DNA from: a virus
DNA length: 55,471 bases
Virus record (IMG/VR): IMGVR_UViG_3300044614_001468
Span: 1 to 55,471 of that record
Reading direction: 5' to 3' (one strand)
Below the pieces are notes generated by a model, which did not search any database, was not told where the DNA came from, and was given only the letters and a program-made list of their open reading frames with translations. Within the stretch, counting starts at the first letter, position 1, and the number at the start of each line of letters is the position of its first letter. A program made the translations under genes and the position numbers. Shown in pieces: positions 27,265-44,197 of this stretch.

Positions 27265-27288
27265 ATGTTTTATTTAAGCTTGGTTACA

Positions 27289-28215
27289 TTACCAAGAAAG
27301 TGGTTCATACTTTACGATGTCGCACTCAGAGAGGAAGAGTTCGACCTGCGTGGAGTTGTCTGCAAAGCAGAGACGTTTGAATGGGCAAGAAGGGCAAGAG
27401 TTAGTGAGCTTGCCTGTGGGTGGCGGAAGCTTATCATATGTGAGGGCATTGTGAATGAGGCGCGAAAAGAGTTCGATTCTTTGTTTTAACTCGACACCGA
27501 ACTCTTCAAGTTGCTCGGCGGAGAAACTCCAATCGGGGCCGGTGCGCCATGCTGGGGCTGGCAGAGAGATCTGGACGACGAGCGTGCGTATCACCATGCG
27601 GCGATACCATGCAGCGTTGGCGTAGTTGATGTCGTCTTTAAATATCTCATACGCAAAACGCTGGAAGATATAGTAGTAGAAAGAGAACTGTGTGTCGCCT
27701 TCGTAGCCCGCGACCGCGTCTTTGAATGCGTACTTGCGCGTCGTCTTATAGTCTGTGATCTGAAGGATTCCCGCTGGGGTTATGCTAAGTAGGTCAACCG
27801 TTCCGACATAGGCAAACGCGGGATGCTCTACGATAGGAAAGTTGAAGTGGAACTCAGCCCCGCGATTGTCACCAAACTTTAAGGGAATAGGAAGCGACGT
27901 AAGAGGCGCGGCCGTCAGAGCTTTCTTGATCTGATCTTGATCTTTGTTCGGCAGGTTCTTTTCCTTCGCCGCTTTGAACGCTTCGAGACAGGCATCTTGC
28001 CACTTCTCTCCGCTCCGGTCAAAGGCAATGTTCTCTGCGAACTTGTGAATGATCTTGCCGACGGTCAAGGCGGTGATGTCTTCTTTAGGCTTAAGGCCAA
28101 GGAAGACTGTGAGAAACCAGCGACGCGGACAAGCTGAGATCTTTAAGCCAGATGCGTTGATTGGGATTGTTGCGGGAATGCCTTCGTGAGGAAGATCTTT
28201 ATAGGTTAAGTTCAT
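27289..28215 (-). CDS. Cas4/RecB-like PD-(D/E)XK nuclease with Fe-S cysteines (308 aa)
   Basis: The start at 28215 (MNLTYKDLPHEGIP) is used because the upstream extension runs into a strong hairpin. The first cysteine is at residue 29 (SACPRRW). GKIIHKFAE (53-61) is the alpha-helical His motif, VGTVDLL gives the catalytic Asp141, and LQITDYKTTR the D...xK motif (~152-160). The C-terminal CPSCPFKRLC completes a four-Cys iron-sulphur site as in Cas4/AddB. It probably resects DNA ends for the Sak4-like annealing system. Confidence 0.82.
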   Translation of the reverse strand: MNLTYKDLPHEGIPATIPINASGLKISACPRRWFLTVFLGLKPKEDITALTVGKIIHKFAENIAFDRSGEKWQDACLEAFKAAKEKNLPNKDQDQIKKALTAAPLTSLPIPLKFGDNRGAEFHFNFPIVEHPAFAYVGTVDLLSITPAGILQITDYKTTRKYAFKDAVAGYEGDTQFSFYYYIFQRFAYEIFKDDINYANAAWYRRMVIRTLVVQISLPAPAWRTGPDWSFSAEQLEEFGVELKQRIELFSRLIHNALTYDKLPPPTGKLTNSCPSCPFKRLCFADNSTQVELFLSECDIVKYEPLSW

Positions 28216-28236
28216 ATTTTTTGAGGGAAATGAAAA

Positions 28237-28314
28237 GCTACTCGGCGCGCCGTCCACAGGAAAAAAACCTAAACCTGCTGCAAGAACAGCTTGCATAACG
28301 CACCGAGTAGCTTA
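28237..28314 (-). other. Long stem-loop between NUMOD and nuclease genes
   Basis: Fifteen-base arms (AAGCTACTCGG.GCG and its complement CGC.CCGAGTAGCTT, one mismatch) enclose about 48 bases that contain a further small repeat, GCAAG..CTTGC. On the minus strand it is followed by TTTTCATTTCCC. It could be a terminator/attenuator or a small structured RNA in the leader of the nuclease gene. Confidence 0.6.
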
Positions 28315-28317
28315 AAG

Positions 28318-28506
28318 TTATTTCTTATATTGAAAAGTAAAGCCACGGCATTTCTGGCCGCGATACATTTGATGACAGACGGCGGCTGGATTTACCTTGA
28401 GAGCTTTGGCCGCGGCTTTTGCAGAAGGATATTCTTCTCCGGTCTCAAGACATATGACTGGCTTACATGCATTATTACCGGGGCGTTTTTTCTTTAGAAC
28501 TTTCAC
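28318..28506 (-). CDS. NUMOD1-like DNA-binding domain protein (62 aa)
   Basis: A stand-alone NUMOD1-type module: KPVICLETGEEYPSAKAAAK (residues ~15-34), then AVCHQMYRGQKCRGFTFQY. NUMOD domains usually sit next to HNH or GIY-YIG nucleases in homing endonucleases, but no nuclease domain is attached here. The basic N-terminus fits DNA binding. It overlaps the previous gene by four bases. Confidence 0.7.
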   Translation of the reverse strand: MKVLKKKRPGNNACKPVICLETGEEYPSAKAAAKALKVNPAAVCHQMYRGQKCRGFTFQYKK

Positions 28507-28724
28507 TTCTTGAATTTGAAGTTCTGAGTTTGATTGATGATAGCTTGAACGTCTATGCCTTTGAGGAGAGGATCGTTTAGGAGGGAAGCGAGATCGGTGC
28601 CGGTTGGGCGCGTGTGAGGAAAGTGTTTGAGCAGAAACTTCTCAAGCTCTTTGTCTGTCATCTCTTCGACGGGTTTAGGAAGGCCCAATAAGAGATCGAG
28701 TTCGTTGAGATTTGAATTACTCAT
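28503..28724 (-). CDS. Hypothetical protein (73 aa)
   Basis: Starting at 28724 (MSNSNLNELDLLLGLPK), the protein is a small helical, acidic product with a LEKFLLKHFPHTRPTG segment and basic end NFKFKK. It overlaps the NUMOD gene by four bases (ATGA) and lies one base from the previous stop. Function unknown. Confidence 0.6.
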   Translation of the reverse strand: MSNSNLNELDLLLGLPKPVEEMTDKELEKFLLKHFPHTRPTGTDLASLLNDPLLKGIDVQAIINQTQNFKFKK

Positions 28725-28725
28725 A

Positions 28726-28938
28726 TCATAGAACAATACAGCAGAGTTTCTTGCGGGCAGGATTCTTGTCAATCAAAGAGGCCTCGGCTTCTTGAGGCGT
28801 GGGATATAGTATGGTCGTAAACCATAGGCCGTTGAGCTTATGCTTATAGGCGTAGAAGTAATGCTCTTTTGGCGGCGGCATTTCGGAGTCCGTTGCGGTG
28901 GCGTATGTGATTCCTTCGTTGTTTGATGTGGCACTCAT
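28726..28938 (-). CDS. Hypothetical protein (70 aa)
   Basis: The start at 28938 (MSATSNNEGITYATATDSEM) follows the upstream stop by one base. Longer starts would lie wholly within the transglycosylase gene. The C-terminal half has YFYAYKHKLNGLWFTTILY and ends KKLCCIVL, which could be membrane-associating. Function unknown. Confidence 0.55.
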   Translation of the reverse strand: MSATSNNEGITYATATDSEMPPPKEHYFYAYKHKLNGLWFTTILYPTPQEAEASLIDKNPARKKLCCIVL

Positions 28939-28939
28939 A

Positions 28940-29386
28940 TCATTGGTTGTTTCTATACTCTTCATATAAGTTATTAAATCTTTCCGATCTTTTTCTGATG
29001 TTAGCGGGGAGTCTATCAAAGTCATAATCTCGCCGGGAGAAAGCTTCAAGTCCGATATTCCATGCGGCGTAAACATCCCTTGGTTGTGGATTTTTGACGC
29101 GCTGGGCAAGACAGAGCCTGAGTTCAAGCCAGCATAGATGCGCTTTAGCACAGCGCCTTGCTTCGGTTGGAATATGTCTCTGATCTTTTTCAGAAGGGAA
29201 GTGTTGCTTCCAGACGCTGCGTTTGATTTGATATCGGGAGAGTTCACCGTGTTTGCCTTTTGCTTTGTCGTTGTCATTGGACTCTATTTGACTAATGGCC
29301 CTAAGCTTCGCGTCGAAGTCTTGTTGCAGGGCTATGATTGTTGTTTCTGTCGCGAGTAGTGTTAGACCTAGCATAAAAGGTTTCAT
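28940..29386 (-). CDS. Lysozyme-like transglycosylase, probable endolysin (148 aa)
   Basis: The N-terminal MKPFMLGLTLLATETTIIAL is a signal-anchor or secretion segment. AISQIESNDNDKAKGKHGE gives the SLT-type catalytic Glu35 in the usual ES...A.G..GE context, followed by RYQIKRSVW. RDVYAAWNIGLEAFSRR matches the A.N.G...A pattern of the fold. It is the only cell-wall hydrolase candidate I found, so it is probably the endolysin, exported by its own N-terminus. It is encoded far from the holin-like genes and on the opposite strand. Confidence 0.7.
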   Translation of the reverse strand: MKPFMLGLTLLATETTIIALQQDFDAKLRAISQIESNDNDKAKGKHGELSRYQIKRSVWKQHFPSEKDQRHIPTEARRCAKAHLCWLELRLCLAQRVKNPQPRDVYAAWNIGLEAFSRRDYDFDRLPANIRKRSERFNNLYEEYRNNQ

Positions 29387-29796
29387 AGCGGTGGCCAGAA
29401 GTATGGTAGGTTATCGGGAATGTTTGGAAACTTTGGACCATAGAACTCAGGTTTCTTCCGTATGAGATTACTCTGATGTGTCTTATGTAGATAAGAGCCG
29501 AGCCAATGTGGCTGTATGATGTAAGGGTAAGTGAGAATCTCTTTCTCAAAGTGAGGAAGAAGGTTGTCAACGTAGCCCCGGCGGCGTGCTTCTTGGCAGA
29601 TCTTGATGCTGTACAAACAAAGCCACGCAGGATAGTCTTTGATCATGCGCACGGCGGGATGACTGCGCCAGCCGGTTGACTTACCTTGGATTGTGTTGAG
29701 GATTTGAAGAGATTCAACGCGCTGTTTCATGAGGCGCTGGGTATCGAGGACGCGGGCAGACTGTTCGATGTCTGCGTAGGGTAGGAAGATTTGCAT
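29383..29796 (-). CDS. DenV-like pyrimidine-dimer DNA glycosylase family protein (137 aa)
   Basis: The pattern MQIFLPYADIEQSARVLDTQ, RLMKQRVESLQIL, then GWRSHPAVRMIKDYP and LCLYSIKICQEARRRGY, matches the T4 endonuclease V-related family of small repair proteins found in bacteria and phages. The reaction would be cleavage of the glycosyl bond at UV dimers. Activity of this branch is inferred. It overlaps the transglycosylase gene by four bases. Confidence 0.7.
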   Translation of the reverse strand: MQIFLPYADIEQSARVLDTQRLMKQRVESLQILNTIQGKSTGWRSHPAVRMIKDYPAWLCLYSIKICQEARRRGYVDNLLPHFEKEILTYPYIIQPHWLGSYLHKTHQSNLIRKKPEFYGPKFPNIPDNLPYFWPPL

Positions 29797-29817
29797 TTTG
29801 TGGTTGTGTTTTATTTA

Positions 29818-30471
29818 TCACTCTAACCCTTTCAACATCTCTTCACTCATCTTCATCGCGATGAGTTCGTTGGGAGTTGTCTCGATGATGATTGTGTTGT
29901 CTTGCATTGCGAGCTGCCGGGCGAACTTCTCCGCACTTGAAGTATAGTTCTGCCAGCTTGCTTGACTTCCCACCTCGCCGCTGTTGACGAATGAGATGAT
30001 CTCTTCGCGGAAGATCTCTTCGTTGAATGTGAAAGGATCTTCGTCGCTGCCGCCGAGGAGAGGTGTCATGGCGTCTAGGATATTATCAATGGGCTCGACG
30101 AGTTCGATGATGAGGTTGACTTTGCGCACGGAGATCTGCACCTTTTCTTTCAGCTCGTCGACGATGGGGATATCATCAGGGTCGATAGCGCCTTGAAGAA
30201 CACCGACGCCCTTGTCGTTGATGAATGCTTTGCCTTGTGATAGGCGAGCGCGTATGGTTTGAGGTTGCTGCCTGAGGGTTAGGGAATTGATGGTGGCTTT
30301 CTTAGAGGGGATCTTAGAGAGCTTAATCACTAACTGTGCAAACTGCACAGCATGCTTGATGTCGTAGTAAGGCCAGCCTTGCTTGCGCTCTGTCTTGTTA
30401 AGAATGCTGTCTGCTTGTTTGAGCAAGGCGGCTGGGTCGTGTTGTTGTTTTGTTGGGTTGAATATGTTCAT
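29818..30471 (-). CDS. Hypothetical protein (217 aa)
   Basis: A predominantly helical protein with an acidic middle (LLGGSDEDPFTFNEEIFREE) and opening NIFNPTKQQHDPAALLKQAD. The opening MNIF resembles that of the helicase at 32439-34613. A conserved-looking segment RARLSQGKAFINDKGVGVL might be a nucleotide- or DNA-binding surface, but no known motif is present. Function unknown. It lies in the middle of the regulatory/repair operon. Confidence 0.6.
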   Translation of the reverse strand: MNIFNPTKQQHDPAALLKQADSILNKTERKQGWPYYDIKHAVQFAQLVIKLSKIPSKKATINSLTLRQQPQTIRARLSQGKAFINDKGVGVLQGAIDPDDIPIVDELKEKVQISVRKVNLIIELVEPIDNILDAMTPLLGGSDEDPFTFNEEIFREEIISFVNSGEVGSQASWQNYTSSAEKFARQLAMQDNTIIIETTPNELIAMKMSEEMLKGLE

Positions 30472-30490
30472 TTTGTTTTGTTGTTATGGT

Positions 30491-30715
30491 TCACGGCTTG
30501 GCCTCCTTGGCTTTGTTTCTATTTTGATTGATGAAGCTAATTGGATTTGCTGAAAGCGTCTGCTTACCGCAATGGATGCATTTCCATTTTCTTTTAACAT
30601 TGAATGCAACGTCCCAGTGAGAATGTGAGCCATGGAAACTGTCGTTTAGCGGTTGCCAATAATGAGAACACGCAATTCCAAGAAACCGTTTGAGTATCTT
30701 TCCAATACAATTCAT
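30491..30715 (-). CDS. Small zinc-ribbon-like protein (74 aa)
   Basis: Starting at 30715 (MNCIGKILKRFLGIACSHYW), it carries CIHCGKQT plus upstream Cys/His residues (CSHYWQ), a likely zinc site. It ends NKAKEAKP. The C-terminus and the underlying DNA (AAGCCAAGGAGGCCAAGC) are almost the same as the end of the next upstream gene, which ends AKEAKL. This suggests a short duplication across the gene boundary. Confidence 0.55.
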   Translation of the reverse strand: MNCIGKILKRFLGIACSHYWQPLNDSFHGSHSHWDVAFNVKRKWKCIHCGKQTLSANPISFINQNRNKAKEAKP

Positions 30716-30720
30716 TGCGC

Positions 30721-31089
30721 TCACAGCTTGGCCTCCTTGGCTTCGAGTGCTTCTGACGCTGTGTCGATTGCGTACCAGCAAGCGTCTATCAATGCTCGCT
30801 CGTTGTTGTCTCCGTTCCAGTATTCTCGAATGGACTCAAGAGACTCCTCCAGCCGCTTGATGCGGTCCTCTTGCTCGCGGATCTTGGTAGCCTGTGCATC
30901 GGCCATCCATTGCTCGCGCATGATCTTCAACACTTCGGCCGCTGTCTCTGTGGGTTTGAGATCTTCGGACACAGTGATACGACCGTCGGCGTGAATCGTT
31001 AGGAGTGCTTTGCCTAGCTTTTTCAATTGGATCATATTAGGTTCAATGCCGTCGAGGCTGAACTTATCTGGGATTAGTATGTCGTTCAT
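30721..31089 (-). CDS. Coiled-coil protein next to the sigma-54 activator (122 aa)
   Basis: The start at 31089 (MNDILIPDKFSLDGIEP) follows the activator stop by four bases; upstream methionines lie within the activator gene. Residues ~17-45 have a beta pattern (GKALLTIHADGRITVSED). Residues ~50-90 are a coiled coil (AQATKIREQEDRIKRLEE). It could be a partner or modulator of the activator, but there is no direct evidence. Confidence 0.55.
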   Translation of the reverse strand: MNDILIPDKFSLDGIEPNMIQLKKLGKALLTIHADGRITVSEDLKPTETAAEVLKIMREQWMADAQATKIREQEDRIKRLEESLESIREYWNGDNNERALIDACWYAIDTASEALEAKEAKL

Positions 31090-31093
31090 ATCT

Positions 31094-31933
31094 TTATTCT
31101 CCTTTATCATACTCCGGCAATTCAATCTCTCCAAGTTCTCTCTTAAGTAATAGATTACGCAACGCACGGACATTCCCAAAGGAGAATGTCTCGTCGCCGA
31201 AGTGTTCGCGCTCGCCAATAGGTGTCCAGTTTTCTTCTTCGATTATCGCCGAGGCCACACATCGGATTTCCTGCACGCCTCGTTGTTGTAATGAGAGAGT
31301 CTTCAGACCGAGTTCGTTAATGCGGAAGTATAGATCCTCACGGAAGCTTCCCTCTTTAACCATCTTGAGGAGATCTCTATTTGTAGCGAACACAAACCTA
31401 CATTGAATTGGCACAGGATCAACAGCTCCGACGGGCAAGACTGTCTTATCCTGCAAGACTCTCAATAACTTAGCTTGATGCGACAGGGGCAATTCGCCTA
31501 TCTCATCGAGGAAAGCAGTACCCTTGCCGACTGCTCTTAGGAAACCAACGTCGCCTCTTGATTTAGCACCAGTAAAAGCGCCGGGCATGTAGCCAAATAG
31601 TTCTGATTGGAATAGTGTGTCTGTCAAACCAGCCATGTTCATAGCCTTGAGAGGCTTTCGTTTGTGGGCAAGGATCCTTGCGATCAACTCCTTGCCTGTG
31701 CCCGATGGGCCTTCGATCAGGACGTTGTATCTCTGCAAGCTTTCTTCCGCATATGTCATCGCGGAGTTGAGCATCTTCTTCGTGGCAGGATCTTGCGTGG
31801 CATAGGACGAAGCGACATTGTGGATACTGTTCTCCTTCAATGCGTCGCCTGTGATCTTGAGGACATCCTTGCGGATGTTATCAAGGAAGCTGTCGGCGGC
31901 TGTGGTATTGAGGACGTTTGCGTGGATGTTCAT
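31094..31933 (-). CDS. Sigma-54 activator AAA+ ATPase without DNA-binding domain (279 aa)
   Basis: A complete bacterial enhancer-binding protein core: Walker A GPSGTGKE (75-82), the sigma-54 contact loop GAFTGA (118-123), Walker B GTAFLDEIGE (138-147), sensor I FATNRDL (182-188), arginine finger FREDLYFRI (197-205) and sensor II GNVRALRN (253-260). The family remodels the closed sigma-54 RNA polymerase complex using ATP. Only ~60 residues precede Walker A, with no receiver, GAF or PAS domain, and the protein ends at 279 with no Fis-type helix-turn-helix. It must act from solution or through a partner such as the HTH protein at 32109-32396. It is in the same operon as rpoN. Confidence 0.93.
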   Translation of the reverse strand: MNIHANVLNTTAADSFLDNIRKDVLKITGDALKENSIHNVASSYATQDPATKKMLNSAMTYAEESLQRYNVLIEGPSGTGKELIARILAHKRKPLKAMNMAGLTDTLFQSELFGYMPGAFTGAKSRGDVGFLRAVGKGTAFLDEIGELPLSHQAKLLRVLQDKTVLPVGAVDPVPIQCRFVFATNRDLLKMVKEGSFREDLYFRINELGLKTLSLQQRGVQEIRCVASAIIEEENWTPIGEREHFGDETFSFGNVRALRNLLLKRELGEIELPEYDKGE

Positions 31934-32112
31934 TTTTTCTTGGGTTTATTTTTTCTCTTACTATATAAAGACGGACCGGGATCTCTTAGCTTATAAGACA
32001 TGATCGCCTTGTGCGCGGCGGCGAGTTCATCTCTATCAAGATACTCCTCGTCGACTGATCCTGCCTTATGTTTAGGCTTAAACTGTTCACCTTGTTGATG
32101 AAAGCGACTCAT
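31930..32112 (-). CDS. Small basic protein (60 aa)
   Basis: A 60-residue charged protein (opening MSRFHQQGEQFKPKHKAGS, ending KRKNKPKKK) coupled by four-base ATGA overlaps to both the HTH gene before it and the activator after it. The lysine-rich tail suggests nucleic acid binding. Function unknown, but the tight coupling to the activator makes an accessory role plausible. Confidence 0.6.
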   Translation of the reverse strand: MSRFHQQGEQFKPKHKAGSVDEEYLDRDELAAAHKAIMSYKLRDPGPSLYSKRKNKPKKK

Positions 32113-32396
32113 TTTTTTAGCGTTAGTTTTCTTAGCTCACACTCTAGCTGGAAGATTCTATTGTGTTGTTTGTTGACGAGGTTAGTTAGCTCACTGATCT
32201 TGCGCTCATAGTATTCATACTTTGACGGCGTGCGCTGGATGTTTGAGATCAGGCCGCGCGAGACTCCAAAGTGCTCTGCGATTTTAGATTGTGATAGCTC
32301 TGGATGCTTTTGTATAAAGCTTTTGATCTTCTTCTTCTCTTCGATCGAGAGATAATAATTTTTTCTCTTTAGGTCTTGTATTTTTCTTTCGTACAT
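32109..32396 (-). CDS. Helix-turn-helix coiled-coil regulator (95 aa)
   Basis: Residues ~32-54 (PELSQSKIAEHFGVSRGLIS) form a clear helix-turn-helix of the resolvase/transposase-like type. A C-terminal coiled coil (SELTNLVNKQHNRIFQLECE) probably dimerises it. It is encoded two genes before the activator with ATGA overlaps. Since the activator lacks a DNA-binding domain, this protein is a candidate to tether it to upstream sites. That link is inference. Confidence 0.7.
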   Translation of the reverse strand: MYERKIQDLKRKNYYLSIEEKKKIKSFIQKHPELSQSKIAEHFGVSRGLISNIQRTPSKYEYYERKISELTNLVNKQHNRIFQLECELRKLTLKK

Positions 32397-32438
32397 GATA
32401 GTATAGGGTTAATGAATAAAGAATCAAGTAGTGAAGAA

Positions 32439-34613
32439 TCATGCCGCCTGTGCCTGAGGTTCGTCGTCCTCATCGTCATCATCCTCGTCCGTCTCGATCA
32501 CGCCCGTGGACTCAGCGGCGGCGAGATCTTCTTCTGTTAGTTTGACGGCGGTCGCTCGATCACGAAGAGCTTTCTCTAGTTCGCCAGCGAGATCGACGTT
32601 TGAGGAGCCAATGGCGTCGACAGACTTAAGCTTTCGTGCAAGCTTCGGCGCCATGTGATCGCTGAGGATTGTGCCTTCTGGGACATAGATGTCTTGCGTC
32701 GTGTCGGTTAGAGTAGTGATACGCACGCAGCGACCAAGAGCCTGTGCAAATTCCTCTGCCCAATAGGTCATCGTGCTCATGACACTACGCGGCCGAGTGT
32801 GGTTATAGCGATGGTCGAGACTGATACCTGTACCTCCTGAGGAGAGAGTATAGATACAGAACTCAGTCTCTCCGTTGAGGAAAGCTTGCACGTTCTCGTG
32901 TCGTTCCTTCTGGTTCTGATTGTGAAGCTTCATCTCTCGAAGCTTCTCATTCCTCTGGGCGAATGCATCCTTTGTCATCTCTCGGAAGATACGTTCGGAG
33001 GTGTACTTGATGCCCTTGTGGAAGGCGCGGAATTCTTCCTTCGTGATCCCGATGTCATCCGCTTTAGGCTTGCGGGCTTCGTCTGGATTATCGAGAATCC
33101 ACATGCCCATCTTGGCTGCGATCTCTGCCGCGCGTGTTTCTGGTAAGAGATCCTCGGGCTTGATCTCTCGATTGCCGCCCCAGATTAGAGAGATCTTTTG
33201 TTTAGTAAGACCTTTGCTCTTGAAATAGTCAGACTCACAGAGCTTCATCACTAGTTCCTTGAGAGTCTCTGTGAAGCGAATAGCAATGACAGGCGCATAG
33301 CCGTTTTGATGGGCATGAATTGCGTCGGCGACCCATGTGTCTACGGTTGCAAGCTCGGCCGCTCGGGCCATGACCATGAAGGCAACCATGACTTGACCTT
33401 GTGGATCTATTGAGCGACCTGTGCGTTCGAGAGCTTCAAGATAATTCTTCATCGCGTTCTTGAGCATCGCTTTGTTCGCGGGGTCAGTGATCTCGAAGAG
33501 CTTGACTTTGTTAAGAGCCTTGACTTTCTGAGGATCGCCGGGCGGCTTGACGAAGCGGTCGCCGATCGCAGCGCCCCAGCGTTCGAGAGCGGCGGCGTTA
33601 GCTTGTCGAGGATCTGCGCCGAGTGTGAGAGTGCGTGCGAATTCAGGAAAGGTTTCTCTCGTCAAGGGTCGAGCGCCATATTGTAAACGCATCGCGATAG
33701 ACATGAACATCGTGTCCCATACTGTCACGGCGGGCGTCGCGGAAGTAAAGACCCAAGTGATTTCTGGGAACTGAAGGAAGGCTTCGAGATATTTTGTACG
33801 CTTAGACTTCTCCTTCTTGATCTCCTGACACTCGTCTAGGATGATTAGCTTGGGCGCAGCAGACGCTGGCAGGTTAAAGCGTATGACGCTTGTAGCTTGG
33901 CCGAAGACTTCTACTGTTTCGGTCTTGAAGAAGTTTCTGTTTTTCGCAGAGAAGACTTCGTTATAAGACCACACGTCCACAGCGAGTCCGACAGATTCGA
34001 GACCTAGTTTCTTTAGGGTATCGCGGAAGTCAAGCACGACGGACTTTTTGGTGATGATTAAGATAGGCGGAAAGAGTCCGAGAAAGTTACAGAACTTCTG
34101 AGGGTCATGCTTTTGTAGCCACAGCGCGAGACCCGCTGCGATCCAGCTCTTACCTTTGCCTGTGCCGAGTGGAACAAGAGAGCCATTGAGGTTCTTGTTA
34201 TACAATACATCAAGCAGGGCGGCGATAGCTTTCTTCTGCTGAGGCTTGAACTCTAGCCCGTTGGGAAGCTTGATGTCGATTGTGCTGTATGTGCGCTTCT
34301 CTCTCAAGGCAAGTTCTTCCGCGAGACGAAGAGCTTCCTTTTGCTGGCGCGCTGGGGCTTGATTAACCCAGCCCTGAAGGAAGCCGAGCAATGTAGCATA
34401 GTCGAGCTTGACTGTTGGGATTACGGCGAGAGATAGTTCCTTCTGCAGAAAGTCCCAATCAAATGGCTCTCTGCGATACAGATCAGTAAGCTTTTTAGCT
34501 TGCGCCCGGGCGGTCGTGAGGGCGGTCTGTTGAAGCCTGTCTTCTTTGCTTGTGTATTGAGGTTCCGTTTGGACAGGTTTCTTTATCCCCGAAGGAGTAG
34601 CGAATATGTTCAT
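32439..34613 (-). CDS. Superfamily 2 (SNF2/DEAD-like) helicase (724 aa)
   Basis: Walker A is PLGTGKGKS at ~148-156, the DExx box is IILDECQEI, motif III FTSATP, and motifs V/VI SSGGTGISL and QALGRCVRI. The N-terminal ~115 residues are a phage-specific helical extension and the C-terminus is a long acidic run (ETDEDDDDEDDE). It probably unwinds or remodels DNA in replication or recombination. It lies between the rpoN-proximal genes and the HTH gene. Confidence 0.82.
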   Translation of the reverse strand: MNIFATPSGIKKPVQTEPQYTSKEDRLQQTALTTARAQAKKLTDLYRREPFDWDFLQKELSLAVIPTVKLDYATLLGFLQGWVNQAPARQQKEALRLAEELALREKRTYSTIDIKLPNGLEFKPQQKKAIAALLDVLYNKNLNGSLVPLGTGKGKSWIAAGLALWLQKHDPQKFCNFLGLFPPILIITKKSVVLDFRDTLKKLGLESVGLAVDVWSYNEVFSAKNRNFFKTETVEVFGQATSVIRFNLPASAAPKLIILDECQEIKKEKSKRTKYLEAFLQFPEITWVFTSATPAVTVWDTMFMSIAMRLQYGARPLTRETFPEFARTLTLGADPRQANAAALERWGAAIGDRFVKPPGDPQKVKALNKVKLFEITDPANKAMLKNAMKNYLEALERTGRSIDPQGQVMVAFMVMARAAELATVDTWVADAIHAHQNGYAPVIAIRFTETLKELVMKLCESDYFKSKGLTKQKISLIWGGNREIKPEDLLPETRAAEIAAKMGMWILDNPDEARKPKADDIGITKEEFRAFHKGIKYTSERIFREMTKDAFAQRNEKLREMKLHNQNQKERHENVQAFLNGETEFCIYTLSSGGTGISLDHRYNHTRPRSVMSTMTYWAEEFAQALGRCVRITTLTDTTQDIYVPEGTILSDHMAPKLARKLKSVDAIGSSNVDLAGELEKALRDRATAVKLTEEDLAAAESTGVIETDEDDDDEDDEPQAQAA

Positions 34614-34614
34614 G

Positions 34615-34803
34615 TTATAGTAGTTTTGAGATCACTTCTTCAGCGTTCTTGAATCCGTATGCGGTTGGCGTTTTGCTTATAAGACTTACGTATTCGCCGA
34701 ATACGATACTCTCGGCCGTGGGTTTGTCAAGTTGCACATAGGCTTTGTTGATGTTGTCGCGTTGATTAAGCAAGGGCGTTAGCTTTTTCTGCAGAGCAAG
34801 CAT
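34615..34803 (-). CDS. Small helical protein (62 aa)
   Basis: The start at 34803 (MLALQKKLTPLLNQRDNINK) lies one base past the upstream stop. A longer form from 34914 is open, adding a basic coiled-coil N-terminus, but it would overlap the previous gene by 110 bases. The end GFKNAEEVISKLL and the helical character suggest a small adaptor. One base separates it from the helicase start, so it is likely a co-translated helicase partner. Confidence 0.5.
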   Translation of the reverse strand: MLALQKKLTPLLNQRDNINKAYVQLDKPTAESIVFGEYVSLISKTPTAYGFKNAEEVISKLL

Positions 34804-34804
34804 C

Positions 34805-35485
34805 TTATCCTCCAGCTGTTGGCGTATCAAGACGTTCTTCTTGGTGGCTTTGTCCATTGCTTTCTTCAGGCGCAGGGATTCTTTGATTGTCTTCTGTTGC
34901 AGGGCTTTGTTCATAGTTTAGGATGTTTCTTGTGTCTACGATTTTTAGTACTTCTTCGAGAGGGAAATAGCAGTTGATGTTGTTGAATGCGCCTTTGAGG
35001 GCGTCGTTGAGCTGTCGAGATTTGTTAAGATAGATCTCTTCGCCTTGTGAAGTGATCGCGATGGCGACCTCTGTTGCCTTCTGTCTGTTGAAGAGCTTAG
35101 CTTTAGCGAGTGCATCACTGATCATCTCTACACGGAGATCTTCTGCTTTCTTCCGGATGTAGGATATGTCAGAGGCAAGGTGGTTTGCACGAAGGATTCT
35201 TCTGCGCTCGTCGCTGAGGTTCCAATCGGTGGCATCCCAGATGACAGAGTAAGAGAATCCGTCTTCGTTGATTCTCTGAATATGGAGATGCTCACTTGCG
35301 CAGTGAGCCTTAACCCAGTCGGCTGTTTCATTTGTAGCAACAATCGCATGGGCAAGATTATTCCCGCCAGTTCGGCGGATGAAATGCCCTCGCTCTGCAT
35401 CGACATGACAAGAGCACGATGGGAAGAGCAATCCCCAGAGTTCTTGTGGAGTGATTTCTTGGACGTCTTCATTTTGAGGAGGCAT
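34805..35485 (-). CDS. Hypothetical protein downstream of rpoN (226 aa)
   Basis: Residues ~10-90 contain a two-Cys motif (FPSCSCHVDAERGHFI) and aromatic-rich strands (YSVIWDATDWNLSDERRR), followed by helices and a polar, disordered tail (ATEDNQRIPAPEESNGQ). It overlaps rpoN by 17 bases and is thus translationally coupled to the sigma factor. Family not recognised. Confidence 0.6.
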   Translation of the reverse strand: MPPQNEDVQEITPQELWGLLFPSCSCHVDAERGHFIRRTGGNNLAHAIVATNETADWVKAHCASEHLHIQRINEDGFSYSVIWDATDWNLSDERRRILRANHLASDISYIRKKAEDLRVEMISDALAKAKLFNRQKATEVAIAITSQGEEIYLNKSRQLNDALKGAFNNINCYFPLEEVLKIVDTRNILNYEQSPATEDNQRIPAPEESNGQSHQEERLDTPTAGG

Positions 35486-36764
35486 AGACTTTACGGAGAT
35501 GTGATGGTTGAATACCTAGTTCTGCTCTGTATTTAGCGATTGTGCGCCGGGCGATTGTGTTCTTGAGGAGTGTTACAATGTCCTCATCGCTTAGTGGGCG
35601 AGACTTGTCTTCGCATGAGATGATCTCTGCGATTTGATTTTTTATTGAGAGGTTACTTTGCATGGTGTTTTGTTCATGGTTTACGATAGCACTGGTGAAG
35701 AAAAATCTTAGTTCATATGTACCGCGCGGAGTAGAGATGTATTTGTTACACACGGCTCTGCTCACGGTGGTCTCGTGGATCTCACAGACCGTCGCGATCT
35801 GAGCCATCGTGAGCGGCTTGAGATCTTTGATCTGGCCGCTGCGGAAGAAGTCTTGTTGATAGTCTACGATCGCATTAGACACGCGGCCGAGAGTAGACTG
35901 GCGCTGCATGATAGATCGAATGAGAAACTTTCCCATCTTTACTTTCTCACGCACGAACTCCCGCTCGGCGGGCTTGAGCTTGTGGAGATAGCTTAGAACG
36001 TGATCGTTGATCTTGTAGACAGGAAGTTTCTCGTTCGGGATATCTATTGTGCCGTCGTCGCGCAGAAAGATCTCTGCGTCTTTCGGCGTGTGCGTTGAAG
36101 ATGCGAACTCTGAAGCGGGATTATAGTTTAGTTTAGAGAGTTGCTTGTACAATAATTCGATCGTGGTAAAGGTCTCGTTGTATTTCTTCGCGAGAATGGG
36201 GATTTGGCGTCGAGTGAAGAGATCTTCGTCTTGTTGAAGGATTTGATAAGCTAATGAAGAAGAATTTAATTGAAGACATAAGCAATCTGCAAGACTCAAA
36301 GCGCCGAGGCCGCGTGGTTCGAGCGTGCGGATAAATCGCAGAGCTTTTCTCTGTTCTGTCGTGAGAATGTCTGGATCATGTAGGAAATATCCTCGCTCGT
36401 TAAGAAGAGATATGACAGAGAGATCATGACCGGCGAGAGATAATTCTTTCTCTAAGTATTCTTCTAGTGTCTCATCTCGGCCGGGATTATTCTCTAGCGG
36501 ATATTGCTCTTTGTATGATGGAACACTATCCGAGAGAGAAGTCCACTGCATATCCGCCGGGAGTTCAGCTTTGTCGTTCTCGTAGGATATGTCTTCTTCT
36601 GCTTGATTATTGTCAAGCATCTCGACGCATGGATTGTCGTTGATGAACGACTCCATGATAGATCGCAGGTCACAAAGTGGAGCTTGAAGAAGCGCGAGAG
36701 ACTGTTGCAGTTGTGGACTCAGTATCAAAGATTGAGTCTGCTGCGTGGAGATAGAAATTTTCAT
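35469..36764 (-). CDS. rpoN: Phage-encoded sigma-54 factor RpoN (431 aa)
   Basis: All hallmark regions are present. The glutamine-rich region I activator contact (QTQSLILSPQLQQSLALLQ, ~9-27) runs into DNPCVEM. An acidic region II (~52-100) follows, then the core-binding region (SLADCLCLQL, LTTEQRKALRFIRTLEPRG). The -12-interacting helix-turn-helix is LTMAQIATVCEIHETTVSRA then NKYISTPRGTYELRFFFTSA. The RpoN box ARRTIAKYR is at 405-413, for -24 recognition. At 431 residues it is slightly shorter than bacterial RpoN but not truncated. It would redirect host core RNA polymerase to -24/-12 promoters and needs an AAA+ activator, which the phage also carries. A -24/-12 site lies in its own leader. 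Confidence 0.95.
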   Translation of the reverse strand: MKISISTQQTQSLILSPQLQQSLALLQAPLCDLRSIMESFINDNPCVEMLDNNQAEEDISYENDKAELPADMQWTSLSDSVPSYKEQYPLENNPGRDETLEEYLEKELSLAGHDLSVISLLNERGYFLHDPDILTTEQRKALRFIRTLEPRGLGALSLADCLCLQLNSSSLAYQILQQDEDLFTRRQIPILAKKYNETFTTIELLYKQLSKLNYNPASEFASSTHTPKDAEIFLRDDGTIDIPNEKLPVYKINDHVLSYLHKLKPAEREFVREKVKMGKFLIRSIMQRQSTLGRVSNAIVDYQQDFFRSGQIKDLKPLTMAQIATVCEIHETTVSRAVCNKYISTPRGTYELRFFFTSAIVNHEQNTMQSNLSIKNQIAEIISCEDKSRPLSDEDIVTLLKNTIARRTIAKYRAELGIQPSHLRKVYASSK

Positions 36765-36797
36765 TTGTCTGGTGGTTGATGCAGACTATTGCAATAG

Positions 36798-36813
36798 AGC
36801 CTAAAGTGTGCCA
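36798..36813 (-). promoter_or_regulatory. Predicted sigma-54 promoter of rpoN (autoregulatory)
   Basis: The minus strand reads TGGCAC-ACTTT-AGGC with a preceding T, a full -24 TTGGCAC element and GC at -12, spacing exact. The predicted start is near 36787, 23 bases before the rpoN ATG. It lies directly downstream of the terminator at 36857-36894, so rpoN would depend on it, implying positive feedback. Confidence 0.72.
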
Positions 36814-36850
36814 AGTTTTGGCATATGTTGGATGCCAATACTTGGAACAC
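36808..36850. promoter_or_regulatory. Nested inverted repeat overlapping the rpoN -24 element
   Basis: The core TTGGCAT-atgttgg-ATGCCAA (36819-36839) is flanked by GTGCCAAGT on one side and ACTTGGAACAC on the other, giving a near-continuous dyad that includes the -24 box. It could be an operator for a repressor or activator, or a composite of three TTGGCA half-sites. Confidence 0.6.
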
Positions 36851-36856
36851 CTCAAA

Positions 36857-36894
36857 GAAAAAGCCTCTGTCGGATGTTACTCCAACAGAGGCTT
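36857..36894 (-). terminator. Rho-independent terminator upstream of rpoN
   Basis: A perfect 10-bp stem AAGCCTCTGT / ACAGAGGCTT, with TTTTTCTTTG following on the minus strand. It ends the transcript of the 214-aa gene and insulates the rpoN promoter. Confidence 0.85.
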
Positions 36895-36955
36895 CGTGAT
36901 TTAGACTTGATTACTTCTTCTCGATCACGGGATCGAGTAGATTGTTGTCTTAGAC

Positions 36956-37600
36956 TTAGACAGTTTTCTTCTTGGCTTCGCGCTTGGCCTTCGCGCTGGC
37001 GAGTTCGTTGGCCTTCGCGAGGAGCTGCGCCAGAGAGGCGATAAGGTTAGCCTGCTTGGCCACGGCGGCATCCTTGTCGGACACGCCCAAAGAGCGAGCA
37101 GTGTCGTCGTTCCACTCGCCAGCGAGAGCGAACACAATCGAGCCGATCTCAGAGCGAATGCCTTCGATCTTCTTGAGGACAGACTTTTCGGTCTCACGGT
37201 CGGCGCTGACGCCGTAGATGAAGGCGGCGAAGTAGTCGGGAGTGTTGCCCTTGCTGAGATAGGCTTCAGAAGCGTCTTCGGCGATGTCGAGGAGTTCAGC
37301 CTGTACGAGATCACTCAGAGCATTAGAGATGCGCTTCGTTTCAGTGACAGAGCCGTCTTCGTTCTTGACCTTGGTCACGTGCTCGGTCAGGATCTCAGCG
37401 AGAGCTTCGCCGCGCTTGATGTAGTACTGGAGATCGCTAACGGCCAGAATCGGAGACTGAAAAGAGACAACACGCTCCGGAGACTTAGCAGTCTTGCGGA
37501 CATGACGCTCGTTGGTGGCGAACTGAGGGTTGCCGTTGCTGTCGCTCTGGAAGACAGATCCAGCGAAGGAGGCAACGAGTTCGAGGTTCTTAGTGCTCAT
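36956..37600 (-). CDS. Unknown early/middle protein on its own sigma-54 transcript (214 aa)
   Basis: It opens MSTKNLELVASFAGSVFQSD, has a helical middle (RISNALSDLVQAELLDIAED), and ends in a lysine/alanine-rich helix (ELASAKAKREAKKKTV). No known motif. It stands alone between a terminator plus promoter upstream and a terminator downstream, an arrangement otherwise seen for the SSB-like gene. High and separately timed expression is therefore likely. It could be a DNA-binding or host-takeover protein. Confidence 0.7.
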   Translation of the reverse strand: MSTKNLELVASFAGSVFQSDSNGNPQFATNERHVRKTAKSPERVVSFQSPILAVSDLQYYIKRGEALAEILTEHVTKVKNEDGSVTETKRISNALSDLVQAELLDIAEDASEAYLSKGNTPDYFAAFIYGVSADRETEKSVLKKIEGIRSEIGSIVFALAGEWNDDTARSLGVSDKDAAVAKQANLIASLAQLLAKANELASAKAKREAKKKTV

Positions 37601-37708
37601 TTTACTTGTGTTTCTTTTTGTTGGTTTGTTTTATTGGGATGTTTTCGGTTTTACGTTGAACCGCTAACATTATCGCACAGTCACCAACAGGACCGGCAAA
37701 TCGGATAA

Positions 37709-37724
37709 AGCTTTTGAAATGCCA
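37709..37724 (-). promoter_or_regulatory. Predicted sigma-54 promoter for the 214-aa gene
   Basis: The minus strand reads TGGCAT-TTCAA-AAGCT, preceded by T and followed by TT, with exact GG-N10-GC spacing. It is nearly the same as the terminase promoter at 41858-41873 (TGGCAT-TCTAA-AAGCT). Predicted start near 37698, leaving a ~98-base leader. Confidence 0.72.
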
Positions 37725-37740
37725 AGTTATTTTTGACAAT

Positions 37741-37791
37741 AAAAAAGCTCCATAAAGAGAAGCCCTCCTTGAAGGGCTTTGCTTTGTGGAG
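37741..37791 (-). terminator. Terminator after the early small-gene cluster
   Basis: A nested stem, CTCCA..TGGAG outside AAGCCCT..AGGGCTT, with six T on the minus strand (37741-37746). It ends the early cluster immediately before the sigma-54 promoter at 37709-37724. Confidence 0.8.
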
Positions 37792-37793
37792 AG

Positions 37794-37964
37794 TTAATTA
37801 CCGCCGAGAATCTGGCCTATCTCATAAGGCTCAAGGTGAAAGTCAAGACACATAATGTGAGTATGTTTGACGTGGTTTATGTAGTCGTGTATGTTGTTTG
37901 ATTTACATACAGGAACGAGACAATAGTGGAATGTATTGTCAAGAGAACGAATTATTACTATCAT
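37794..37964 (-). CDS. Small early protein (56 aa)
   Basis: The frame opens at ATG 37964 within an ATGA overlap with the preceding stop, the coupling used throughout this cluster. It runs 56 codons (opening MIVIIRSLDNTFHYCLVPVC). It is histidine- and cysteine-rich (HVKHTHIMCLDFHLE), possibly metal binding. It ends at the operon terminator. Function unknown. Confidence 0.65.
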   Translation of the reverse strand: MIVIIRSLDNTFHYCLVPVCKSNNIHDYINHVKHTHIMCLDFHLEPYEIGQILGGN

Positions 37965-38230
37965 CTTGGAGGTAGGTTTTTAATCTTGTTTAAAACTTCT
38001 GCAACTTCAAAGAAATCGAGAAAACCCATCACATCGTCTGTGATAGGAGTATCATACACAATGCGATCGTCATGCATTACAGCAATCTCAAACAGTCCAT
38101 CGTGTCCGCCTTTTGTCCAACGGCAATCACCATTTACTACCAACGTGCCTGCACCATTACCGCAAATGATTGAGGCTGTGTATCCGTTTTCGAACTTAAT
38201 CTTTTTTCCGTAGTTTATTACTTCTTTCAT
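37961..38230 (-). CDS. Small early protein (89 aa)
   Basis: Starting at 38230 (MKEVINYGKKIKFENGYTAS), one base past the upstream stop; a three-residue longer start at 38239 is possible. The pattern SIICGNGAGTLVVNGDCRW then DGLFEIAVMHDDRIVYDTP is an all-beta small domain often seen in phage early regions. It ends in a helix (FFEVAEVLNKIKNLPPR). Function unknown. Confidence 0.65.
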   Translation of the reverse strand: MKEVINYGKKIKFENGYTASIICGNGAGTLVVNGDCRWTKGGHDGLFEIAVMHDDRIVYDTPITDDVMGFLDFFEVAEVLNKIKNLPPR

Positions 38231-38231
38231 A

Positions 38232-38492
38232 TTATGCATCTTTGATTGTTATGTTTGTTGTACCGGTTTGAAAAGCTTTTCCGTTCGTACCCTTTGCAGA
38301 GCGATGCGTCACACGCTTATGCACCTTAAACACGTCAGGATGCATAGGCTGAATCGCGCCGCCTGTCTTGTGGCCAAAGTTGAGAGCGCCTTTGTATTGC
38401 CATTGTGGCTGACAAGAGATGCAACGCGAGAAGCCGAGAGCTTTTCTATCGGCGTCAATAACTTGAAGACAACGTAAGCAACGATTTGTCAT
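38232..38492 (-). CDS. Zinc-ribbon protein (86 aa)
   Basis: CLRCLQ near residue 5 and CISCQPQW near residue 24 form a CxxC...CxxC zinc ribbon. The rest is basic with several His (HKRVTHRSAKGTNGK). It probably binds nucleic acid or the transcription machinery. The start overlaps the upstream stop (ATGA). Confidence 0.65.
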   Translation of the reverse strand: MTNRCLRCLQVIDADRKALGFSRCISCQPQWQYKGALNFGHKTGGAIQPMHPDVFKVHKRVTHRSAKGTNGKAFQTGTTNITIKDA

Positions 38493-38620
38493 AAGCTTTC
38501 ATCTCGTCCAATATCCCATCCCGGACCATCATCAAGAGGCTCATCGTCATAGATGCTCAATTCGCGACGCAAGTCTTCGAGTGTGGGATTTTCTTCTATT
38601 TCTTCAACTGGTTCTTTCAT
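38489..38620 (-). CDS. Very acidic small protein (43 aa)
   Basis: The frame from ATG 38620 encodes 43 residues, about a third of them Asp or Glu (EEIEENPTLEDLRRELSIYD, DDEPLDDGPGWD). Its stop overlaps the next ATG (ATGA) and it begins three bases after the previous stop, so it belongs to the coupled early cluster. Such acidic peptides can be DNA mimics or inhibitors of host proteins; that is speculation. Confidence 0.6.
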   Translation of the reverse strand: MKEPVEEIEENPTLEDLRRELSIYDDEPLDDGPGWDIGRDESL

Positions 38621-38623
38621 AGA

Positions 38624-38938
38624 TTAAAAAGTTTTGTGACTCTCAATAAAGTTCTTAGCATTTAGAAGATTGCAAGGATAACCTGTTAGCTTGAGATGCA
38701 AGCCCATAAAGAATTTCATCATGCGAATCTTAACGGGTCCGAGTCTTTCATCTTTGTCAGATGGTTGCATAAGGTCAGACCATAGCTCTTGCACCATAAG
38801 GCTCGTGTAGGTCACGGCGTGAACCTCACGAATAGGCTCCATGTCGGAGATTGCAACTTCGACATCTTCATCAAGCCTTTGATAAAAGTAATGAGCTAAT
38901 AGTCTTTCGGCCTCTTGTTTGTTTACTGTTATTTTCAT
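38624..38938 (-). CDS. Hypothetical early protein (104 aa)
   Basis: Opens MKITVNKQEAERLLAHYFYQ and contains LDEDVEVAISDMEPIREVHA, a small alpha/beta protein with no recognised motif. It forms part of the tight small-gene cluster. Function unknown. Confidence 0.65.
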   Translation of the reverse strand: MKITVNKQEAERLLAHYFYQRLDEDVEVAISDMEPIREVHAVTYTSLMVQELWSDLMQPSDKDERLGPVKIRMMKFFMGLHLKLTGYPCNLLNAKNFIESHKTF

Positions 38939-38947
38939 TTTATTTAG

Positions 38948-39046
38948 TTAGTACATTATTCCTTTGACAAAGTAATACAAAGTGACCAGTAAGATCACAG
39001 AACCTACAATCAAAACAATGAGTTCGTCTTTCTTGTGTTGTTTCAT
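38948..39046 (-). CDS. Single-pass membrane microprotein (32 aa)
   Basis: ATG 39046 opens a 32-residue protein with a charged N-terminus (MKQHKKDE) and one ~19-residue transmembrane helix (LIVLIVGSVILLVTLYYFV). It fits the gap between two neighbours with 5 to 9 bases either side. It is possibly an early membrane-targeted inhibitor such as a superinfection factor. Function unknown. Confidence 0.6.
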   Translation of the reverse strand: MKQHKKDELIVLIVGSVILLVTLYYFVKGIMY

Positions 39047-39051
39047 AAATA

Positions 39052-39276
39052 TCAAATCCAATCAATTTTACTTTTCTCAGTCGCTCTCACAATACGAGAG
39101 ACACTTGGTTTATGACAGAGCCAAGCCTTTGCCTTATGGACAGATTGCTTGTCTTTCTTAGCATTGCGCTTTGAAAGAGGCACAAGTTGCTTGTGCATTT
39201 TGGATTGCTTCGAGGCAAAGTATTTGCCTAGATTGACAGAGTTAAATCTGTCAAATTGTTTTTGCTTTCTGGTCAT
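39052..39276 (-). CDS. Small basic early protein (74 aa)
   Basis: Strongly basic (MTRKQKQFDRFNSVNLGKYF, KRNAKKDKQSVHKAKAW), suggesting nucleic acid binding. Its ATG lies in the T-run of the terminator hairpin at 39283-39309, so the hairpin may act on its translation. Function unknown. Confidence 0.6.
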   Translation of the reverse strand: MTRKQKQFDRFNSVNLGKYFASKQSKMHKQLVPLSKRNAKKDKQSVHKAKAWLCHKPSVSRIVRATEKSKIDWI

Positions 39277-39309
39277 AAAAAAGAGCTTTTAGTTATTCAC
39301 TAAAAGCTC
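39274..39309 (-). terminator. Terminator-like hairpin touching the start of the 74-aa gene
   Basis: A perfect 11-bp stem GAGCTTTTAGT / ACTAAAAGCTC with loop GAATA on the minus strand, followed by TTTTTT that runs into ATGACC of the next gene. It could attenuate the early transcript. Confidence 0.75.
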
Positions 39310-39342
39310 GATCAAGGCACAACGCTTCGCGTTGTGTGTTGT

Positions 39343-39432
39343 TTATTCCTGCTCTGCTTCGAGTTCGAAGCGGCAGTCGATGCACAAGCAATCATTGGCT
39401 TGTGCTTTCTGGTCACAATATTTGCATTCCAT
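39343..39432 (-). CDS. Zinc-finger microprotein (29 aa)
   Basis: ATG 39432 opens a 29-residue protein with five cysteines arranged CKYC..DCLCIDC and an acidic tail. This looks like a minimal four-Cys zinc knuckle. It precedes the terminator hairpin at 39274-39309. Its Cys spacing argues that it is real despite its size. Confidence 0.55.
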   Translation of the reverse strand: MECKYCDQKAQANDCLCIDCRFELEAEQE

Positions 39433-39471
39433 AATAACCTAGACTTTGCATCTAGTCTTTACCTTGTAGTG

Positions 39472-39541
39472 TGTGGATAGTTTGAAGAAAGAGAAGGTTT
39501 GAATAAAACCATTTAGTGCGTGGATATTGCGTTGTGGATAA
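39472..39541. other. Three DnaA-box-like sites, candidate origin element
   Basis: TGTGGATAA at 39533-39541 is a perfect DnaA box (complement TTATCCACA). TGTGGATAG (39472-39480) and CGTGGATAT (39519-39527) are close variants in the same orientation. They sit in noncoding DNA next to a long hairpin. Together they are consistent with a replication origin or a titration site for host DnaA. Confidence 0.5.
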
Positions 39542-39563
39542 TGCGCAACACTACAAAGCAAAG

Positions 39564-39643
39564 ACTAAATGCAAAAGCCTTGCGAGTCACCTATTGTTTC
39601 CCTTGCAAAAGGCAAGGCAATAGCGCAAGGCTTTTGATTTAGT
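39564..39643. repeat. Very long stem-loop (20 + 6 + 6 bp)
   Basis: ACTAAAT (39564-39570) pairs with ATTTAGT (39637-39643). A 13-bp stem follows, CAAAAGCCTTGCG with CGCAAGGCTTTTG (39624-39636). Inside these are CTATTG/CAATAG and CCTTGC/GCAAGG, capped by a five-base loop. The plus strand is followed by TTTTTG. It may be a terminator for plus-strand RNA, a cruciform at the origin, or the first domain of the structured RNA described next. Confidence 0.8.
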
Positions 39644-39755
39644 TTTTGAGGTTATTTAATTGGGCAAGCTACCAAAGATAACCTACAAAGAGTCTTTTGT
39701 TTAAGTGTTTCTGTCTTCTGACATCCGATGGACAGTTTCTTAAGCAATCGGAAAG

Positions 39756-40013
39756 CTAACACTTAGGGCCGTCGTTAGGCGTTGCACCTAACACGTTTTT
39801 CTTTTGGTTCCGGTCAAAGCCTAGCCAACCAAAAGAGTCCCAAAGACTTTGGGCTTTTGTTTTCGTTTCTTTGTCTACTTGTCCCGCATTTAATCGGTTC
39901 ACTCTTTCGAAGAGTCTAGACAAGCTTTCAAAGTCTACTAGCAAGAGCCTTTCCCATTCATCGCAGGGAACACACAAGGGTAAATCCCCTATGTTGTACG
40001 TTTCACGTCTCAC
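39756..40013 (-). CDS. Doubtful ORF inside the structured region (85 aa)
   Basis: A frame opening MRRETYNIGDLPLCVPCDEW and containing SLSRLFERVNRLNAG has protein-like composition with three tryptophans. However, at least five inverted repeats fall within its 258 bases, so it may be a chance frame across a structured RNA. If real, it is a small helical protein of unknown function. Confidence 0.3.
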   Translation of the reverse strand: MRRETYNIGDLPLCVPCDEWERLLLVDFESLSRLFERVNRLNAGQVDKETKTKAQSLWDSFGWLGFDRNQKKNVLGATPNDGPKC

Positions 40014-40399
40014 GTTTCTTTGTTAAATGCGTTTGAGTTTTAAATCTTAACATTAAACAAAGAAAACCGGTTTTTTATTCCTACTTTAACAAAAGGGGAT
40101 TTAATGTCTGCATAGCTACTTTGTCCGATTCTTTAGTGTTTCTCTTAACACTTTAGCTTTTCCCGCTACTAGGTTAAATGCGTTTCTTCCGATTTACCTA
40201 GACTCTTAAGGCAATTTACACTTTGCCTTAATAGCTTCACGCTACTTCTAAAGAATTATTTCCGCTCCTTTTGATAGTATCAAAAAGGCACGCTATGCGT
40301 TTATTAAATCCGGTTTTTTGTATTATTCAAACCGGGCTTTGTGTGTGCTAGGTTCACTCTCCCGCTTTAACACGGGAGAGTGTGAAGTGTTACCGTCAA

Positions 40400-41087: not shown

Positions 41088-41142
41088 GCTATTTTAGGTA
41101 ACAAAAAACGCTATTTTAAGTAAAAAACGGGTATTCTAGGGA
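41088..41142 (+). repeat. Three imperfect iteron-like repeats
   Basis: GCTATTTTAGGTA (41088), GCTATTTTAAGTA (41110) and GGTATTCTAGGGA (41130), spaced 22 and 20 bases, about two helical turns. A related ACGCTATTTA occurs near 41603. The spacing on one helical face suggests protein binding. Confidence 0.55.
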
Positions 41143-44195: not shown

Positions 44196-44197
44196 CT

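Follow-up and report, generated by a model that had tools for sequence, protein, structure and literature searches.

The IMG/VR virus record IMGVR_UViG_3300044614_001468, analysed over its full length of 55,471 nucleotides (nt; hereafter the window), carries on its minus strand predicted genes for both a sigma-54 factor (rpoN) and a sigma-54 activator ATPase, with rpoN upstream. We propose that this phage very probably transcribes its own genes by means of its own sigma-54, its own activator and conserved phage promoters. The two genes are as follows (aa, amino acids; dN/dS, ratio of nonsynonymous to synonymous substitution rates).

35469-36764, minus strand: rpoN, sigma-54 factor of 431 aa (Pfam, PDB match, clade alignment, dN/dS)
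31094-31933, minus strand: sigma-54 activator ATPase, a bare AAA+ domain of 279 aa with GAFTGA (Pfam, PDB, alignment, dN/dS)

Sigma-54 factor and activator ATPase

Pfam matched the 431-aa protein with Sigma54_DBD (5.3e-50), Sigma54_CBD (4.5e-18) and Sigma54_AID (2.2e-11), all above the curated cut-offs, and the AID, core-binding and DNA-binding domains were present in the expected order. Solved bacterial sigma-54 chains in the PDB matched residues 2-425, which is the full length (E 6e-44). The RpoN box ARRTIAKYR and the HETTVSRA segment of the -12 helix-turn-helix (HTH) were invariant in an alignment of nine clade sequences, and no second RpoN match was present in the window. The preliminary description of this DNA had named the protein RpoN; its coordinates and frame proved right, and all three RpoN domains of Pfam were recovered. 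By every sequence feature tested the protein is a sigma-54 factor, and it would be expected to bind the host core polymerase.

The 279-aa protein was matched by Sigma54_activat (7.7e-50, above the curated cut-off), and its PDB matches were AAA+ chains of the NtrC/ZraR/NtrC1 type (E about 1e-35). Walker A (GPSGTGKE), GAFTGA, Walker B (DEIGELP) and the arginine-finger segment (FREDLYFR) were identical across the 10 relatives aligned, and Sigma54_activat hit the window and each of 10 relatives exactly once. The GAFTGA and AAA+ motifs announced earlier for this protein are therefore intact, and both proteins passed the hidden Markov model comparison with Sigma54_AID, Sigma54_CBD, Sigma54_DBD and Sigma54_activat that had been suggested as a check. 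About 45 residues precede the AAA+ core, and the protein stops soon after the sensor II segment GNVRALRN, at residue 279. On the features tested it would be classed as a bacterial enhancer-binding protein, except for the C-terminal DNA-binding domain, and the phage sigma-54 is its predicted partner.

IMG/VR was scanned with an RpoN alignment, an activator alignment and a DNA pattern of the RpoN box, and the scans yielded essentially one clade of uncultured phages. The search of viral databases for the same pair, proposed in the preliminary description, thus returned 21 IMG/VR contigs with both genes. Six contigs with the activator end before the rpoN position, rpoN alone occurred in none, and rpoN was kept in every contig that spans its position. 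Across the clade the identity to the proteins of the window was 73-100% for RpoN and 93-100% for the activator. The dN/dS values (0.07-0.15 for rpoN, 0.04-0.07 for the activator) indicate that both are functional genes under strong purifying selection.

Sigma-54-type promoters

A published sigma-54 promoter consensus is TGGCAC-N5-7-TTGCT (PMC12316311). TGGC-N9-GC(T/A), which is equivalent to GG-N10-GC, occurred 56 times in the non-coding parts of 11 clade contigs, the window included, against 3-15 at the 12 other spacings. The count was 41 vs 3-13 when only GCT was accepted. Six unrelated control phages had 3 sites at the N10 spacing vs 2-6 at the others, with no peak. The candidate promoters are on the coding strand, at distances of 28-124 nt from the gene starts that follow them, and alignments of the upstream regions of relatives revealed that the -24 (TTGGCA/TGGCC) and -12 (GCT) blocks are kept while the intervening bases vary. 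When sites were scored with a leave-one-family-out matrix, those at 37724, 36813, 26546 and 41858 ranked second to fifth among the 385 genomic GG-N10-GC sites, and the sites that outrank these four are almost all other candidate promoters. The four sites are listed below.

36798-36813, minus strand: sigma-54-type promoter TGGCACACTTTAGGCT, 49 nt before rpoN, conserved in 10 of 10 contigs aligned
37709-37724, minus strand: sigma-54-type promoter TGGCATTTCAAAAGCT, 124 nt before the gene at 36956-37600
26531-26546, minus strand: sigma-54-type promoter TGGCCCACAGAAAGCT, 64 nt before the gene at 25964-26482, the product of which is weakly similar to single-stranded DNA-binding protein (E 0.045)
41858-41873, plus strand: sigma-54-type promoter TGGCATTCTAAAAGCT, 29 nt before 41887, the start of the terminase/late operon

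Conserved sigma-54-type promoters before phage operons, including that of rpoN, are evidence new to this analysis, and they strengthen the earlier idea that the phage takes over transcription through sigma-54. The same sites could be read as sigma-70 promoters with a conserved -35 box, as TTGGCA is near TTGACA, and the rpoN site does score 9/12 as a sigma-70 site (TTGGCA-18-AATAGT, with TG before). However, the hexamer at the -10 position varies among relatives whereas GC is kept at exactly N10 from GG, the spacing peak is found solely at N10, and sigma-70-like sites are not in excess (10 vs 10.5 in shuffles). We thus consider the sigma-70 reading highly improbable. A canonical sigma-54 matrix applied to the whole genome showed no excess (21 vs 27-33 in shuffles) because coding DNA dominates; the signal is confined to non-coding DNA with spacing controls. 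Comparison of the upstream regions of different promoters gave no convincing common enhancer word.

Further sites and elements were found near these promoters or before other genes.

21956-21971, minus strand: possible sigma-54-type promoter TGGCCCAAGAAAAGCT, upstream of the primase gene at 20464-21723
49719-49734, plus strand: possible sigma-54-type promoter TGGCAACTAGGCAGCT, 28 nt before 49747, conserved
47648-47663, plus strand: GG-N10-GC site TGGCATATCGTTAGCA, 171 nt before 47819 and lying in an inverted repeat that is conserved
41795-41804, plus strand: palindrome TGTTCGAACA, candidate enhancer or operator, preceding the terminase-operon promoter by about 60 bp
36809-36823, minus strand: palindrome TGCCAAAACTTGGCA at the rpoN promoter, overlapping its -24 element
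36860-36895, minus strand: intrinsic-terminator-like hairpin (z -4.3), just upstream of the rpoN promoter

The site at 21971 scored 13.8, inside the best-site range of the shuffled genome, and similar sites are present in three relatives (G001-G003). The site at 49719 failed the leave-one-family-out test. The inverted repeat, TCTGGCATATCGTT...AACGATTGTCAGA at 47648-47690 before the gene at 47819-49117, was read by eye as a hairpin, and we are unsure whether this element is a promoter or an RNA element. The window and each of G001-G003 contain a single copy of the palindrome TGTTCGAACA, which in all four precedes the terminase-operon promoter. The palindrome TGCCAAAACTTGGCA is conserved, with another TTGGCA upstream, and may serve as an operator or as a second contact for sigma-54.

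Since the terminator-like hairpin precedes the rpoN promoter, rpoN appears to start its own transcription unit, cut off from the preceding gene. As one element of the explanation that we hold very probable as a whole, rpoN would be positively autoregulated through its own sigma-54-type promoter. In bacteria, an autoregulated rpoN is reported to be enriched in certain classes, one of which is Verrucomicrobiia (PMC12316311). Terminator-like hairpins were frequent in 35000-42500 (23 vs an expected 7.1), and many fall within the AT-rich stretch at 38-41.6 kb, presumably an early region.

A proposed sigma-54 switch for phage genes

In the proposed mechanism the phage sigma-54 would bind the host core polymerase and set it as a closed complex at the TGGC-N9-GC(T/A) promoters of the phage. 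The NtrC-type activator would hydrolyse ATP, and its GAFTGA loop would act on region I of sigma-54 and open the complexes. With rpoN driven by its own product, a positive loop would form that also raises the downstream activator, and the same switch would drive at least two more leftward units and the rightward terminase/structural operon. Since the best promoter of rpoN is of the sigma-54 type, the loop needs a starter, which could be host sigma-54 or, alternatively, host sigma-70 transcription or read-through entering from the AT-rich region at 38-41.6 kb. Both this start and the timing of expression are predictions. The pair had previously been called self-sufficient. The part of that claim which holds is that both halves are encoded by the phage; the need for a starter and the lack of a DNA-binding domain in the activator speak against the rest.

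Several points weigh against the proposed switch. The window alone shows a modest excess, 7 sites at N10 vs 0-4 elsewhere, and the 56 sites are orthologous copies that represent roughly 6-9 independent ancestral places. The single-site scores (15.2-17.6) can also arise by shuffling, since the best sites in 40 shuffled genomes reached about 17-18 (median about 13.5-14); conservation is what the calls of single sites rest on. The -12 box is frequently AAGCT rather than the canonical TTGCT. In the activator, Pfam detected no receiver or GAF sensor and no HTH of the Fis type or another family, and the AAA+ lid appears short. AlphaFold models of both proteins, built from shallow clade alignments, reached predicted local distance difference test values of 34 and 49 and were discarded. 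Finally, the evidence consists of sequence features, namely intact motifs in both proteins, the constant linkage of the two genes, purifying selection, conserved promoters of sigma-54 spacing and the affinity of the sigma to Verrucomicrobiota.

The absence of a DNA-binding domain is compatible with function, since some accepted sigma-54 activators also lack one and isolated activator cores such as PspF(1-275) are active without it. A small neighbouring gene is a candidate for the missing activity.

32109-32396, minus strand: HTH plus coiled-coil-like protein of 95 aa, candidate DNA-binding partner (weak HTH-family matches)

All relatives checked have this gene in the same place, two genes upstream of the activator, and one of them (G009) has it in duplicate. 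Its product could provide the DNA binding that the activator lacks, or none may be needed. We tentatively suggest, as a possibility that is rather doubtful at present, a three-part module in which sigma-54 and the bare activator ATPase are joined by the 32109-32396 protein binding DNA in trans as a split enhancer-binding protein, perhaps at the palindrome at 41795-41804, and which would time late expression.

Since something must start the sigma-54-type rpoN promoter, the host sigma-54 holoenzyme might itself read the phage promoters, the phage activator being decisive and the phage RpoN a supplement or a decoy. RpoN is encoded by 283 of the 289 Verrucomicrobiota genomes sampled, the phage RpoN retains the DNA-reading motifs so that overlapping specificity is probable, and the activator is better conserved than rpoN. 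However, rpoN is under strong purifying selection and is kept wherever a contig covers its position, and the frequent AAGCT box may mark a shifted specificity; dependence on host sigma-54 is therefore judged unlikely. It is also known that phage sigma factors can alter host programmes, as in the case of sporulation-like sigmas (PMC9429907), and sigma-54 and its activator might mainly reprogram host genes or sequester core polymerase instead of serving phage promoters. The conserved sigma-54-type promoters before the phage rpoN and the terminase operon argue against such a role, which we regard as very unlikely. Transcription of phage genes by the phage-encoded pair is thus preferred.

Genomic setting and phage nature

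The window is filed as a virus in IMG/VR. Between rpoN and the activator lie, besides the 32109-32396 gene, a further gene at 31930-32112 and the following two.

34805-35485, minus strand: protein of 226 aa with no Pfam or PHROGs match, overlapping the 3' end of rpoN, kept in relatives
32439-34613, minus strand: helicase (Pfam, PHROGs)

The genes from rpoN to the activator plausibly form one operon. They belong to a run of minus-strand genes from 40.8 to 20.4 kb that are replication genes: this strand encodes a DUF3987 primase/helicase-like protein, a family A DNA polymerase, an ATP ligase, a Sak4-like protein, a PD-(D/E)XK exonuclease, a pyrimidine-dimer glycosylase and a helicase. The polymerase is in two frames, 21975-22967 and 24375-25805 (minus strand), which match successive parts of PHROG 17 and are separated by the genes of a ligase and of a PHROG 3704 ('ferredoxin') protein. 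The outer parts of the window, up to 20.1 kb on the left and from 41.9 kb onwards on the right, carry plus-strand genes that look structural. The large terminase (42426-44195, plus strand) has its best relative in the phage collection in an Akkermansia phage (30%, E 4e-37). A single contig carries the terminase together with replication and structural genes, as in a tailed phage (Caudoviricetes). An integrase or repressor was not matched among the proteins scanned, a scan that did not cover every small open reading frame, and an Rfam search gave no match. The stretches 3250-4364 and 53824-54938 are 91% identical and 50,574 bases apart, and similar end repeats are found in G001 (49,630) and G002 (49,283). 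The repeats suggest either that the genome is circular or permuted, with a unit of about 49-51 kb that the assembly overran into a variant, or that the stretches are paralogous tail genes.

Contamination by host chromosome or a prophage junction does account for rpoN in other records. Among the public phage records (50,697), those with RpoN that were examined consisted of bacterial DNA (Salmonella, Acinetobacter, a faecal contig and a Helicobacter prophage flank); RpoN-bearing records of Listeria, Enterococcus and two faecal contigs were left unchecked individually. The records in INPHARED holding bacterial rpoN include CAKLQF020000038, AGRM01000002 and OR846593, and the Salmonella and Acinetobacter rpoN genes adjoin host housekeeping genes, which indicates that INPHARED is contaminated with host DNA. 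The RpoN-box pattern was found in 25 IMG/VR contigs, of which 21 are of the present clade. Contig L164 was rejected as a further rpoN phage, as its flank looks alphaproteobacterial and its rpoN lies beside a Mu-like prophage. L201, L210 and L215 carry rpoN that looks bacterial when read by eye, two of them near prophage genes; in L210 (IMGVR 2916014648_000004) and L215, rpoN is near phage lysozyme/tail genes and may be a prophage-borne copy or host flank. For the window, however, contamination is refuted, its probability being practically negligible: in 21 contigs rpoN sits within a block of phage genes that is conserved, and identity to the RpoN relatives in the 289 Verrucomicrobiota genomes does not exceed about 42%. 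The preliminary description had named a host-chromosome origin as what would overturn it, and this objection fails because replication genes and the Akkermansia-phage-related terminase share the contig with the pair. Clade-specific peptides found no cellular relative in genomic contigs.

Origin and probable host

Against Verrucomicrobiota RpoN the phage RpoN scored 204-229 bits, whereas no other phylum gave more than 184. In the tree the phage clade was placed on the Verrucomicrobiota side of a branch with 99% support in the Shimodaira-Hasegawa-like approximate likelihood ratio test, on a long stem of 2.0 changes per column. This points to a Verrucomicrobiota origin of the phage rpoN, a grouping that indicates the origin of the gene and not the host. 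Relatives of the terminase (27-34% identity) were found in 10 of 388 Verrucomicrobiota genomes; RpoN phylogeny and terminase similarity together make Verrucomicrobiota the probable host. When the 388 genomes were compared with positions 27000-46300 of the window, only rpoN, AAA+ and short chance-like matches appeared, and neither a CRISPR (clustered regularly interspaced short palindromic repeats) spacer nor a near-identical prophage was found in them.

Significance and comparison with known systems

Phages redirect the host RNA polymerase by sigma-70-class factors, anti-sigmas or polymerases of their own. Sigma-54 is an unrelated sigma class that is silent until an ATPase opens the complex. 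If the proposed explanation is true, it adds a new phage strategy, a tight ATP-driven transcription switch with both halves supplied by the phage. It would also offer a small natural system for the sigma-54 mechanism, with a sigma, a minimal activator and a handful of promoters, and a possible case of shifted -12 specificity. The near-universal presence of sigma-54 in Verrucomicrobiota could plausibly explain why phages of this kind would do well there. Appropriation of sigma factors by phages is already known; the sigma-54 class, with its enhancer-type switch, would be new.

No phage-encoded sigma-54/RpoN was described in the open-licence papers searched, and a survey of phage sigma factors does not name RpoN (PMC9429907). 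PHROGs v4 has no family matching RpoN. The earlier statement that no well-described phage is known to take over transcription through a complete sigma-54 pair is in line with the papers searched and with PHROGs. PHROG 7998 (339 aa, function unassigned) matches the AAA+ region of the activator (E 6.7e-29), which indicates that activator-like proteins occur in other phages.

The phage RpoN resembles Verrucomicrobiota RpoN in having all three domains, the RpoN box, the -12 HTH and the shared SRAV and PSHLRK signatures, but it is phage-encoded, shorter (431 aa vs 466-477 in the bacterial proteins compared) and on a long branch. The activator has the AAA+ core of the bacterial NtrC/ZraR/PspF activators, with Walker A/B, GAFTGA and arginine fingers, whereas it lacks their receiver/GAF sensor and Fis-type DNA-binding domain. 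In this it is like the isolated core PspF(1-275), or like FlgR and CtcC, activators that have no DNA-binding domain. As with the sigma-70-class phage factors (T4 gp55, SPO1 gp28/gp33-34, SP10 and others, PMC9429907), a phage sigma would divert the host core polymerase; unlike them, it belongs to an unrelated sigma class that requires an ATP-driven activator, which this phage is predicted to encode as well.

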